This document shows positions 22,407-25,394 of a stretch of DNA of 39,826 nt, in pieces. Source of the DNA: a virus. The position numbers and the translations under genes are program-made. Under the pieces are notes generated by a model. That model did not search any database, was not told the origin of the DNA, and was given only the letters and a program-made list of their open reading frames with translations. Numbering within the stretch: the stretch's first letter is position 1; the number at the start of each line of letters is the position of its first letter. Where the stretch lies: the IMG/VR virus record IMGVR_UViG_3300042922_001494, positions 1 through 39,826 of that record, one strand, 5' to 3'.

Positions 22407-22553
22407 CTATGCTATCCTTGTCGTTGACACTGCCATAATGAACGCCATAGTGCACCACAATATTGTTCCGCAAATATCTTTCTTTTTCCAACACCACCAA
22501 GCTGCCGCCAAGTCAACAAACATTGCAACCGTATTCAAACAAAATAGTATCAT
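22407..22553 (-). CDS. Small membrane protein between terL and portal
   Basis: A 48-residue frame: starts MILFCLNTVAMFVDL and contains CGTILWCTMAFIMAV. It has two short hydrophobic segments around a KKKD turn, tryptophan- and cysteine-rich. ATG 22553 overlaps the terL stop as ATGA, and GGAGGAGG lies 8-9 bases upstream inside terL, so it is very probably translated. The function is unknown; a membrane role in a packaging operon is unusual. Confidence 0.68.
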   Translation of the reverse strand: MILFCLNTVAMFVDLAAAWWCWKKKDICGTILWCTMAFIMAVSTTRIA

Positions 22554-23899
22554 TGAACATTCCTCCTCCATTTTGGTAACTTTGTCATACAGTAATACCG
22601 AAGCGCATCAGGACCGTGATCTAGCTGTTTGACTGGCTTCTCGTCCCCGTTCTGCGCTGCCTTATCGTCCCACACATAGGAACGTATCTCAGTTATCAGA
22701 CCTTCGCAGCGTTTATGCACCTTGATCTTTCCTGATTGAAAAAGAGCCGCAACCACACGGATTCCGTCAAGAACTTCGTTGTCAGCAGGTTTTACGATAT
22801 ACCCCCGGCTCTTCAACTCTGCTATGAAGCTGGCTGCCGATGGATCCGAAACAACGTCGCACTGCAAATCAGGATTGTCTCCCATGAAGGTAACCATATC
22901 ATCACCATACTGGCTGTCTGTTTTCTGCCCTTCCTTTTCCACCCGGCTGTCCCACCGGTACTCCCGATCTACCCAGATGGTGTCTCCATCATCGTAAATA
23001 TCCAGGAATACACATGGGTTCGTAGTTCCGTAATCTAATGAAATCGTGCGAATGGAGAGATACTCCAATCCCTTGGGACGCGTCTCATCATCGTAGACGT
23101 TGGAGGACTTAGTAAACATGGTATATATAAGCCCTTCGGCAACCGCCCACAATCCCTCGATATAACGTAAAAAAAAGACACCTGCGTACAAACTGCGGTA
23201 TCTCTTCTTGATCGCTTCGTCCAGGGAAAGATTATCTTCCATGGTGAAGTGCAAATATAAGATGTTCTTAACTTCCTTGTCTGAAGCCCTTAACTCTTCG
23301 GCTTTCTTTCTGCCCAGATATCCTATACACTTATTGATCCAACCGACCTTGAACCAATGCATCGGACCTGCAGGGTTGCAGTTAAACCAAAACTTTGAAC
23401 CCGTGATAGAACAACGTCCGGTTGCCTGGTTGACAAACGATTCCGGCATCAGGGCAACTTCATCAAAAAAAGCCCCGGCAGCTGTAATACCTTGCACCAG
23501 CTCCTGGGAACCTTCATCCTTTCCACCGAAGATATGAAAATAGTTAGTAACTTTACCCTTTGTTACTTCCAGCATGTTAGGCGTTTCACCAGACAAATGA
23601 TGAATACAGTGATACCCTCTGCTTCGTAGCATCATCTTTAAATTGGTAAGCACGTTACGCTGAAACGAACTGATTGTTTTACCAGCCATGATAAAGTTCT
23701 GTCCATTGAAAGAGCTCATGGCCCAAAACACATATGACAAAGACATGGAAACCGTCTTCCCTGATCGAATCGCACCATCAGCGATAATTCCGTCCATATC
23801 CTTAACTGGAGAATTCTTCGTCCACCAGTTCAATACCATTCTCTGCTTACGGGAAAACGGTTGAAACTTAAATATCTGTTTCCTCATCCTCCTGCTCAT
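22550..23899 (-). CDS. terL: Terminase large subunit
   Basis: 449 residues. Walker A is GAIRSGKT (residues 42-49), Walker B AGAFFDEV (~141-148), and the C-terminal RNase H-like nuclease includes SLDYGTTNP and the DPSAAS acidic motif. It is of the XtmB/Terminase_3 type. It cuts concatemeric DNA and powers packaging. The start overlaps terS by 32 bp if ATG 23899 is used; ATG 23887 is also possible. Confidence 0.95.
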   Translation of the reverse strand: MSRRMRKQIFKFQPFSRKQRMVLNWWTKNSPVKDMDGIIADGAIRSGKTVSMSLSYVFWAMSSFNGQNFIMAGKTISSFQRNVLTNLKMMLRSRGYHCIHHLSGETPNMLEVTKGKVTNYFHIFGGKDEGSQELVQGITAAGAFFDEVALMPESFVNQATGRCSITGSKFWFNCNPAGPMHWFKVGWINKCIGYLGRKKAEELRASDKEVKNILYLHFTMEDNLSLDEAIKKRYRSLYAGVFFLRYIEGLWAVAEGLIYTMFTKSSNVYDDETRPKGLEYLSIRTISLDYGTTNPCVFLDIYDDGDTIWVDREYRWDSRVEKEGQKTDSQYGDDMVTFMGDNPDLQCDVVSDPSAASFIAELKSRGYIVKPADNEVLDGIRVVAALFQSGKIKVHKRCEGLITEIRSYVWDDKAAQNGDEKPVKQLDHGPDALRYYCMTKLPKWRRNVQ

Positions 23900-24350
23900 T
23901 TTCTTCCCAATCCTCCCAATCTGTATCGGCTGATCCGTTTAATGCATCAAGGAACCCGTCGTCCTCCACTTCTCCCTCATCGTCAACACCCATCTTCGCC
24001 TTAGACGCCGCCATTCGCAGGTTCTGCTCTTCCTGATCCACGTCTGTCTTTTCTGACTGGCCGGAGTATTTGGCAATGGCTTCATAGGCTTTTACATTGC
24101 CGTTTAAAGCTTCTTTGATCATGGCAGCGTGTACAACCATTCCCAGTGTATTATCCAAGCCCAGAGCTTCCAGCACAGGTGACCATTCAGGGTTATTTAC
24201 CTCTGTAGTCAGGAGATCATTCAAATCCTTCCGGAAGTTTGCTTTCCTGCGTCTGGCTTCACCGGAAGCCTTACCACCCGCTGATGCAATCTTTCTCTGT
24301 TCGTTCACTGTTCGTTTACTAAAAGGCACTAAGTTTTCATTGTTTGCCAA
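23868..24350 (-). CDS. terS: Terminase small subunit
   Basis: 160 residues. The basic N-terminus (FSKRTVNEQRKIASAGGKASGEARRRK) is a known feature of Firmicute small terminases and would bind DNA, followed by helices and a very acidic tail (DWEDWEENEQEDEETDI). It recognises the packaging site and hands DNA to the large subunit. The start is TTG 24350 with GAGGTGA just upstream. It is separated from the ArpU-like gene by the non-coding 24.4-24.9 kb region, which is where a pac or cos site would lie. Confidence 0.88.
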   Translation of the reverse strand: MANNENLVPFSKRTVNEQRKIASAGGKASGEARRRKANFRKDLNDLLTTEVNNPEWSPVLEALGLDNTLGMVVHAAMIKEALNGNVKAYEAIAKYSGQSEKTDVDQEEQNLRMAASKAKMGVDDEGEVEDDGFLDALNGSADTDWEDWEENEQEDEETDI

Positions 24351-24384
24351 TCACCTCACCTTCCAATCTGGCTAATTTTTATAA

Positions 24385-24421
24385 CAAAAACACCCATCAA
24401 GGCATTTACCAAGACGGGTGT
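24385..24421 (-). terminator. Intrinsic terminator upstream of terS
   Basis: On the minus strand ACACCCGTC pairs with GATGGGTGT (arms 24413-24421 and 24390-24398, one G.U), followed by U5 at 24385-24389. It would end the RNA made from the promoter near 24900 after the tRNA-like element, leaving terS dependent on read-through. Confidence 0.72.
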
Positions 24422-24555
24422 CAAAAAAAGGAAATCAAAATATGAACAGGAGGCAGGCTGATTATGAACTTGGGGAAAATGATTCCCTATAACACCATCA
24501 TATACTGTGCCGCTTTGTCCTGTGATAATTTTTTTTAAGTAATTATGAAAACCAA

Positions 24556-24622
24556 TCGGAACACCCGGATTCGAACCGGGATCTTCTCTCTGCAGAGTGC
24601 TCTGCCATTGAGCTATGTTCCG
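24556..24622 (-). tRNA. tRNA-like element with truncated anticodon arm (probably not decoding)
   Basis: On the minus strand it has a perfect 7-bp acceptor stem (CGGAACA/TGTTCCG), TA linker, 4-bp D stem GCTC/GAGC with an AATGGCA loop, and a perfect T arm CCCGG-TTCGAAT-CCGGG, then discriminator A with no encoded CCA. Only 17 nt lie between position 26 and the T stem, where 21-22 are needed. They can form a 4-bp CTCT/AGAG hairpin with a 4-nt GCAG loop, so there is no normal 7-nt anticodon loop and no identity can be assigned. All other arms are intact, so it should still fold and perhaps be processed. It may be a decoy or tRNA mimic. Confidence 0.8.
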
Positions 24623-24629
24623 TTTATAG

Positions 24630-24896
24630 GCTGCTTTACGCTCCTTCTCCCTTATATCGGACGGATTGACCACATTTAATCCAGCTTCCCATGCACGCTG
24701 GAACCTATTACGTTATAGGGGGATTGCAGTCCATGTCACGCCGTCAACACCAACTGCATGAGGGTTTCACCTTCCAGGCTTATTTTGATAAGGCAGTAAC
24801 CTAACCCCTGAAGTAGACTGCCGCTCTCCGGCGCTTACACATTCATCATCTCGGAGAAAATACAGGATATGTAAAACCTTTTCTTCTGGCTTCTGC
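24630..24896 (-). ncRNA. Candidate structured non-coding RNA upstream of the tRNA-like element
   Basis: No credible gene is seen in 24630-24896. Several inverted repeats are packed here (plus-strand coordinates): TCCAGC/GCTGGA 24680-24702, CCTAT/ATAGG 24704-24719, TGCAGT/ACTGCA 24725-24758, CTTAT/ATAAG 24779-24792, GGCAGT/ACTGCC 24792-24822, and GCCG/CGGC 24820-24832 (the last two overlap and exclude each other). With a promoter on one side and tRNA-like plus terminator on the other, this looks like one RNA transcript of about 500 nt. A role as packaging RNA or as the pac/cos region is possible but unproven. Confidence 0.55.
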
Positions 24897-24939
24897 ATAA
24901 TAGCATACTACCATGTTTTTAACGAACATGACCGAACAT
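24897..24939 (-). promoter_or_regulatory. Candidate late promoter with tandem ATGTTCG operator
   Basis: Minus strand: two ATGTTCG boxes (24933-24939 and 24923-24929) start exactly 10 bp apart, one helical turn. The second overlaps the -35 position of an extended -10 TGCTATTAT (24897-24905). It lies directly after the ArpU-like gene, a family that activates phage late transcription, so the boxes are probably its binding sites. Confidence 0.6.
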
Positions 24940-24941
24940 TT

Positions 24942-25394
24942 CTAAATTTCTCCAAAAAATCTATTATTTCTCATTCTGCACCCGTCCTCCGTGAACTTCA
25001 TTCTTCGCTTAGGAAACATTCGGTTCATAGCCTGCGCCACCTTCCACCATGGAAGTCCATCTATGTAATACAGCCGAAACATGGTCCTTACCTCACTTTT
25101 GGGGATAGACTCAATATATTCCTCTGCCTGCGTCATAAGCTCCAGTAACTCTGTCTCTTTGATATCCAGTACCTTCTGGAGTCTTTCAATAGCTGCCTCT
25201 TTCCGGTAATGCTCCGGTGTAGGATATCCGGTAATCTTAATGCTTCCATAAGTTCCATCAGATCTGGTCCCCTTCACAGAATCAGAAACAATACCTAGAT
25301 TCCTTATCTGCTTTTCCAATTGCTCCTTGCGCCGGCGAATATCTTTGATTTCCTCTCTCATCTCACAATACTGGACCAGTATTTCTTTGTCCAA
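24942..25394 (-). CDS. ArpU/RinA-like late transcription regulator
   Basis: 150 residues. An N-terminal coiled coil (REEIKDIRRRKEQLEKQIRNL) and the C-terminal 'IPKSEVRTMFRLYYIDGLPWWKVAQAMNRMF' form a sigma region 4-like helix-turn-helix, as in ArpU/DUF1492 phage regulators found just before the terminase genes of Firmicute phages. It is expected to turn on the late operon, probably through the ATGTTCG repeats beyond its stop codon. The start is TTG 25394 with GGGAGGTGA eight bases upstream. Confidence 0.75.
   Translation of the reverse strand: MDKEILVQYCEMREEIKDIRRRKEQLEKQIRNLGIVSDSVKGTRSDGTYGSIKITGYPTPEHYRKEAAIERLQKVLDIKETELLELMTQAEEYIESIPKSEVRTMFRLYYIDGLPWWKVAQAMNRMFPKRRMKFTEDGCRMRNNRFFGEI

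Follow-up and report, generated by a model that had tools for sequence, protein, structure and literature searches.

A candidate tRNA-mimic leader RNA between the late promoter and terS of a Lachnospiraceae prophage

Late leaders and tRNA-like RNAs in other systems

The late genes of phage lambda are preceded by the unit pR'-6S RNA-tR', in which a late promoter gives rise to a short, terminated leader RNA and the late genes come next. The prophage considered here makes up a 39,826-nucleotide stretch of viral DNA (IMG/VR record IMGVR_UViG_3300042922_001494), referred to below as the window, and it likewise places a late promoter, a non-coding leader and an intrinsic terminator before its late genes. 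The lambda leader, however, has neither a tRNA mimic nor a double pseudoknot, and no Q-like antiterminator was identified in the window.

Other parallels come from RNAs that keep company with tRNAs. ROOL and GOLLD are large structured RNAs of phages and prophages that often lie near tRNAs and have no known function, and GOLLD can carry tRNAs in its linker (PMC12286853). Despite this likeness, both are larger than the RNA of the window, have another structure and are known as cage-forming oligomers; identity with them was rejected when their covariance models gave no match up to E 10. In mascRNA and menRNA, of the MALAT1 and NEAT1 transcripts, a non-decoding tRNA mimic sits on a longer non-coding RNA and offers a possible RNase P/RNase Z site. 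This is an analogy only; those RNAs are eukaryotic and share no common descent with the mimic of the window.

A further comparison is provided by SpF41 (F41, srn277), a small RNA of pneumococci with a reported importance in infection. It occurs in 28 records of Streptococcus phages and satellites. In the phages it lies about 100 bp before terS, whereas in the satellites it is found near the 3' end, with different flanking genes, an unrelated upstream protein and no annotated terS beside it. Several of the phage copies have a near-consensus promoter of the TTGAAA-17-TATAAT type, and a terminator follows. Among the copies compared (L153-L166) the core is near-invariant between phages and satellites, and the stems covary, with two-sided changes at 9 pairs. 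As judged from these genomes, the Rfam family SpF41 is a tRNA-like RNA located directly before terS in Streptococcus phages and common to their satellites. In pneumococci, F41 RNA is visible on Northern blots (PMC3395615); it is reported to be about 103 nt long and to keep its terminator, its 3' end being trimmed by Cbf1 (PMC3395615, PMC7196914). It pulls down RNase Z and Cbf1, RNase Z having also bound other sRNAs (PMC7196914), and it is present in few pneumococcal strains (PMC12323649). Within a partial coverage of the literature, we found no paper tying SpF41 to phages, terS or tRNA mimicry, nor any that describes tRNA-like RNAs next to terS in phages or late leaders of the put kind.

The leader in the window resembles SpF41 in its tRNA-like character (acceptor and T arm with GUUCGAAUC), in the intrinsic terminator that follows, in the promoter close upstream and in its position directly before terS; a tRNA-like fold and then a terminator, beside terS, are the SpF41 traits that were sought and found. 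The differences are nevertheless considerable. SpF41 is about 100 nt long as against about 500 nt here, is served by its own near-consensus promoter rather than an ArpU-type late promoter, and has neither of the two further elements of the window, D5 and motif M, described below. The SpF41 model (RF02435) scores the mimic of the window at 29.6 bits (E 0.016) against a cutoff of 52, the T arm being the strongest part, and it gives no match at E 0.001 when run against the whole genome. Because the score is below the cutoff, membership in the family is not claimed and homology is not taken as established.

The late promoter and the interval before terS

The window is a prophage within contig C40, with an integrase at its right end and late genes on the minus strand; genus-mates of the host genome include a Lacrimispora. 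At the other extreme, a SIR2-like protein encoded at 1-1581 on the plus strand matches the PADLOC candidate defence family PDC-S25 (E 5e-152) and adjoins the lysis end of the prophage. The interval under study is bounded on one side by the gene for an ArpU/RinA-type late transcription regulator of 150 aa (24942..25394, minus strand; phrog_36 transcriptional regulator, E 7e-16) and on the other by a putative terS (23868..24350, minus strand), and all of its elements are on the minus strand. The terS product matches phrog_2412, to which PHROG gives no function, and is named for its position before TerL; terL itself (22550-23899, minus strand; Terminase_6N/6C) follows directly. Regulators of phrog_36 also precede the RNA in locus L087 and in the Ruminococcus gnavus phage phiRg507T2_2.

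Directly downstream of the regulator gene lie the two direct-repeat boxes ATGTTCG, 10 bp apart start to start, that the preliminary description had pointed out together with an extended -10, and both features are indeed present on the minus strand. The box pair, ATGTTCGgtcATGTTCG at 24939-24923, is the sole such site in the window (0.24 expected at two or fewer mismatches) and is probably the activator site of the late promoter. The extended -10, TGcTATTAT (24897..24905, minus strand), is kept unchanged in 8 sister loci along with the GCAGAAGCCAGA-like stretch that follows it. In these same loci the two boxes co-vary, reading ATGTTCG/ATGTTCG, ATGTCCC/ATGTCCC or ATGTCTC/ATGTCTC, and the promoters of sister prophages come after the regulator gene, with paired boxes that change jointly and a fixed ATGCAGAAGCCAGA-like start. 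A simple consensus scanner did not flag the promoter, which has no -35; its support comes from the preservation of box pairs and of the -10 and start across sister loci, and transcription would be expected to begin near 24890.

The interval was said to hold no credible protein gene, and this view stands. Its only sizeable ORF (24356-24673) starts with GTG, would encode 105 aa and runs across the tRNA-like element; neither Pfam nor PHROGs gives a match. A protein-coding gene, intact or degraded, was also rejected for the adjoining 5' domain, whose copies differ by indels of 1, 2 and 5 nt, have different stops and have no reading frame in common.

Folding the sequence by itself was of limited help. 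The whole region folds with a z of -1.8 against shuffles, not significant by itself, and the 5' domain with an uninformative z of -0.1; the true structure comes from comparison of relatives. At least five local hairpins had been drawn at 24680-24832; the region is structured, but the hairpins drawn are not the conserved ones, which include pseudoknots. An Rfam scan of the interval for known families, run with the gathering threshold and also with E values as high as 10, brought up only tRNA and a sub-threshold SpF41. The suggestion that the RNA belongs to no known family therefore holds in Rfam for D5 and motif M and fails for the tRNA-like part, which matches the tRNA model, with SpF41_sRNA below threshold. 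BLAST of the whole interval against phages returned just chance and tRNA-arm matches. HDV, twister and other self-cleaving folds were set aside as well, the strand order not fitting and Rfam being silent.

RNA modules of the leader

The first element of the leader, D5, is a domain of 109 nt (24726..24834, minus strand) with homologous copies at the corresponding place in prophages of two other genera. It is predicted to form two hairpins, P2 (GGCAGU/ACUGCC) and P4 (GCAGUU...GACUGC, with an inner stem), and two pseudoknots, one pairing the 5' GCGCCG with the P4 loop and the other pairing the P2 loop GGGUU with AACCC. A family-wide DNA search placed the further copies, which are 67-74% identical, in L086/L137 (Lachnospiraceae g29) and L087 (g47), and at both loci D5 comes directly after the late-regulator gene and is followed by a tRNA-like element. 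All 27 of 27 pairs are kept in the three copies (81/81 cells pair), and 8 pairs show two-sided changes, compared with 3.0 in shuffles and 0-2 in slid controls. These 8 changes, the absence of any broken pair and the lack of a shared frame argue that D5 is conserved as structure and not as protein. Covariation in homologues, which the preliminary description had proposed as a check, is seen as compensatory change at 3 loci in D5 and across 8 phages in the tRNA-like part.

A covariance model of D5 recovers just these three loci, 3 of 397 genomes of the family, and there are three distinct copies in about 1,150 genomes. The one copy in viral contigs, L137, is identical and represents the prophage of host genome G052 again. 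No new copies turned up in genus-mates of G052 and G070 or in samples of the order and class, none in the leaders of R. gnavus and Streptococcus phages even with filters off, and none in plasmids; exact-pattern scans of viral contigs gave chance matches in coding sequence, L137 excepted, and D5 has no match in Rfam. Two weak matches were discarded as chance, L146 being inside a protein gene and L145 following an unrelated metabolic gene with an unsupported P2 stem. By the comparison of its copies, D5 is real but rare, with a covariation resting on three sequences. Downstream of its D5-containing leader, at a distance of about 0.9 kb, the G052 prophage also has a genuine tRNA-Met gene (L086 442-517, L137 812-887).

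Between D5 and the tRNA mimic lies motif M (24626..24708, minus strand), a multibranched element defined by covariation over ten loci. In its ten copies a closing stem is combined with two hairpins, one having the loop GUGCAUGGGAA and the other variable, and with single strands that are conserved; two-sided changes affect 9 pairs, with 26 such cells against 10.5 in shuffles, and Rfam gives no match. Besides the window, the motif is found at L038, L051, L052, L054, L055, L076, L078, L080, L081 and L082, in contexts that include positions between tail genes and small genes, downstream of tyrosine recombinases, and beside a tRNA mimic, which at L038 has the motif on its opposite side. At some loci it directly precedes a start codon or follows an integrase, and no terminator is near. 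Motif M is, on this covariation and range of contexts, an independent RNA element that happens here to sit between D5 and the mimic.

The tRNA mimic (24556..24622, minus strand) bears out the tRNA-like element first noticed on this strand, with an Rfam tRNA (RF00005) score of 53.6 bits against a cutoff of 29 and a fold far more stable than shuffles (z -3.0), although ARAGORN calls no tRNA. Its acceptor is 7 bp long, U8 and A9 are present, the D arm carries GG and the T arm UUCGAAU, and the discriminator is A73. In place of an anticodon arm there is a 4-bp/4-nt hairpin (CUCU GCAG AGAG), and the D and T stems are 18 nt apart, against about 22-23 nt in a standard tRNA. Compared with the RF00005 model, then, the acceptor/D/T cloverleaf is present and the 5-bp stem with 7-nt loop used in decoding is absent. 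Over 8 phages the acceptor, D and T stems are compensated, with two-sided changes at 8 of 16 pairs in an alignment trimmed by hand to the stems and T loop and excluding the poorly matching elements of L033 and L043, the latter having lost most of the tRNA-like element. The anticodon position is occupied by unrelated short hairpins in the relatives and by nearly nothing in L038. The elements of L087 and L140 are borderline as mimics, because a 7-nt loop can be drawn for either and the L140 element is a tRNA-Ala according to ARAGORN.

Mimics beside terS also occur in other Lachnospiraceae phages, and they are optional, several sister intervals having none. In R. gnavus phages the RinA-terS interval holds either the tRNA-Ala-like element just mentioned for L140 or a shorter mimic with no anticodon arm, plus a genuine tRNA-Asn or tRNA-Ile. 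The shorter mimics, in RG-TP1 and phiRgPS_6, are about 46 nt long and consist of acceptor, GG-bearing D loop and T arm only; each directly follows a hairpin resembling a terminator, downstream of the RinA-linked promoter (L168 about 2622-2668, L169 about 1926-1971).

Downstream of the mimic, a 3' spacer segment (24426..24538, minus strand; weak fold, z -1.45) is 86-88% identical in the sister prophage G003, where the mimic is missing. The leader RNA is expected to end at T1 (24385..24422, minus strand), which consists of a 10-bp stem and a U-tract and confirms the intrinsic terminator claimed earlier; its hairpin (24422-24389) has a z of -7.4 against shuffles, and inner bulges left it unflagged by a simple consensus scanner. 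The T1 unit also follows the leader in L049, L063, L067, L117 and others. After T1 comes a junction segment carrying the terS ribosome-binding site (24351..24384, minus strand), which matches several sister prophages over 40 of 40 nt, and there cargo genes part it from T1.

A search of 25 genus-mates returned many partial matches to different pieces of the interval. The sister intervals are built from a promoter, in most cases a hairpin K, which in some sisters is preceded by tail-protein-like genes, in some cases a tRNA mimic, and then T1, cargo and the junction segment. The window has another RNA domain instead of K, and its T1 is joined directly to the terS segment with no cargo. Hairpin K (TAATCCCCCTACGGTTGCCGGGTGTAACAGCCCGGTGACTGATTAA) opens the late leader in most sisters (L049, L050, L059, L063, L066, L117, L118 and others), and the tail-protein-like genes of sister prophages end exactly at it. 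The cargo hotspot between T1 and terS (L033, L056, L058, L060, L063) holds genes for a NACHT ATPase, DUF4062, DUF2971, HicA and others. Read from these matches, the interval is a mosaic of separately exchanged modules, namely promoter, D5, M, tRNA mimic, terminator and terS ribosome-binding site. The idea of a discrete, self-contained non-coding RNA gene survives in part: covariation in D5 and the mimic argues for a structured non-coding RNA from a late promoter, but the RNA is not one unit.

What the leader may do

The reading we prefer, with a probability of about one half, is that the late leader is a non-coding RNA of about 500 nt whose 3' part is tRNA-like, that it is set free at T1 and, least certainly, that it acts in trans. 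An ArpU/RinA-like protein would bind the two boxes and turn on the late promoter, as their conservation and the known biology of RinA and ArpU suggest. Polymerase would transcribe the leader, which from comparison is predicted to fold into the D5 double pseudoknot, M and an L-shaped mimic with no usable anticodon. Most transcripts would probably stop at T1, freeing a discrete RNA, and the late genes would need leakage or antitermination. The last steps are the least certain: tRNA enzymes, RNase P and RNase Z among them, may recognise the mimic and bind or trim it, which might leave a stable, structured RNA from the 5' side and a fragment of tRNA size, both acting in trans on the host tRNA/translation machinery. 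The retention of a terminator by F41 and its trimming by Cbf1 argue against efficient RNase P/Z cleavage there. The sharing of the related SpF41 RNA between satellites and phages favours action in trans, while the recurrent order of promoter, structure and terminator favours a cis attenuator; a trans role and cis attenuation can both be true.

A leader working in cis and nothing else is a distinctly less probable account. It would be an attenuator or a processive-antitermination leader, of the lambda pR'-6S-tR' or HK022 put type, in which D5, M or the mimic gates read-through of T1 into terS and the RNA has no other job. Most sisters, including those with no mimic, do have a promoter, a structured element and an intrinsic terminator before the late genes, the promoter-terminator distance is under 200 nt in L049, and R. 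gnavus phages have a terminator-like hairpin right after the RinA-linked promoter; the RNA modules of the window and of L038 also end just before T1, which precedes terS. Left unexplained, however, is the tRNA-like SpF41 in satellites, away from late genes, and neither the near-consensus promoter of the Streptococcus RNA, which makes it a stand-alone RNA, nor the settings of motif M away from any nearby terminator fit a purely local role. It is unlikely, in turn, that the interval is transcribed but functionless debris, a decayed phage tRNA gene among boundary sequences shuffled at a recombination hotspot. The place is a cargo hotspot with exchangeable boundary segments, the window has T1 fused to the terS segment with no cargo gene, and some mimics, such as the L043 remnant, resemble decaying tRNAs. 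Decay, however, would not keep pairs through two-sided changes in the acceptor, D and T stems of the mimic, in D5 and in SpF41 of phages and satellites, and the arrangement of D5 beside a tRNA-like element is repeated in three genera.

A role in packaging, as a pac/cos site or a packaging RNA working with TerS, had been suggested by the position immediately before terS, a usual place of pac/cos in related phages, and would suit a related SpF41 element common to satellites and phages. The suggestion found no support and is highly improbable: the constraint is on RNA pairing and not on DNA sequence, satellite copies of SpF41 have differing neighbours and lie away from annotated terS, and sisters with an almost identical terS do without the element. 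Just as remote is a working phage tRNA that decodes a codon. The Rfam tRNA score speaks for it, as do the genuine tRNA genes (Asn or Ile) that R. gnavus phages have in this interval; against it are the missing 5-bp/7-nt anticodon arm, the shortened distance between D and T stems, the silence of ARAGORN and the unrelated anticodon-arm sequences among relatives.

Beyond this locus, it is a tentative thought, and one we hold to be rather less probable than the trans-acting leader itself, that temperate Firmicutes phages and their satellites have in common a class of RNAs, tRNA mimics that do not decode, made at the border with the late genes. SpF41 would be the single catalogued member, and fusion behind D5 in some Lachnospiraceae phages would yield a composite RNA acting on host tRNA enzymes or translation in lysogeny or late infection. 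Since viruses of other bacteria have similar tRNA look-alikes in the corresponding position, the RNA has the look of a viral device that is widespread but has gone unrecognised.

For the unexplained pneumococcal sRNA SpF41, the genome comparisons supply a setting: it belongs to phages, where it adjoins terS, and to satellites. Two structured RNA elements that Rfam does not match, D5 with its double pseudoknot and motif M, are added to those described, and the loci compared here suggest that the late genes are headed by non-decoding tRNA mimics in phages from several Firmicutes.
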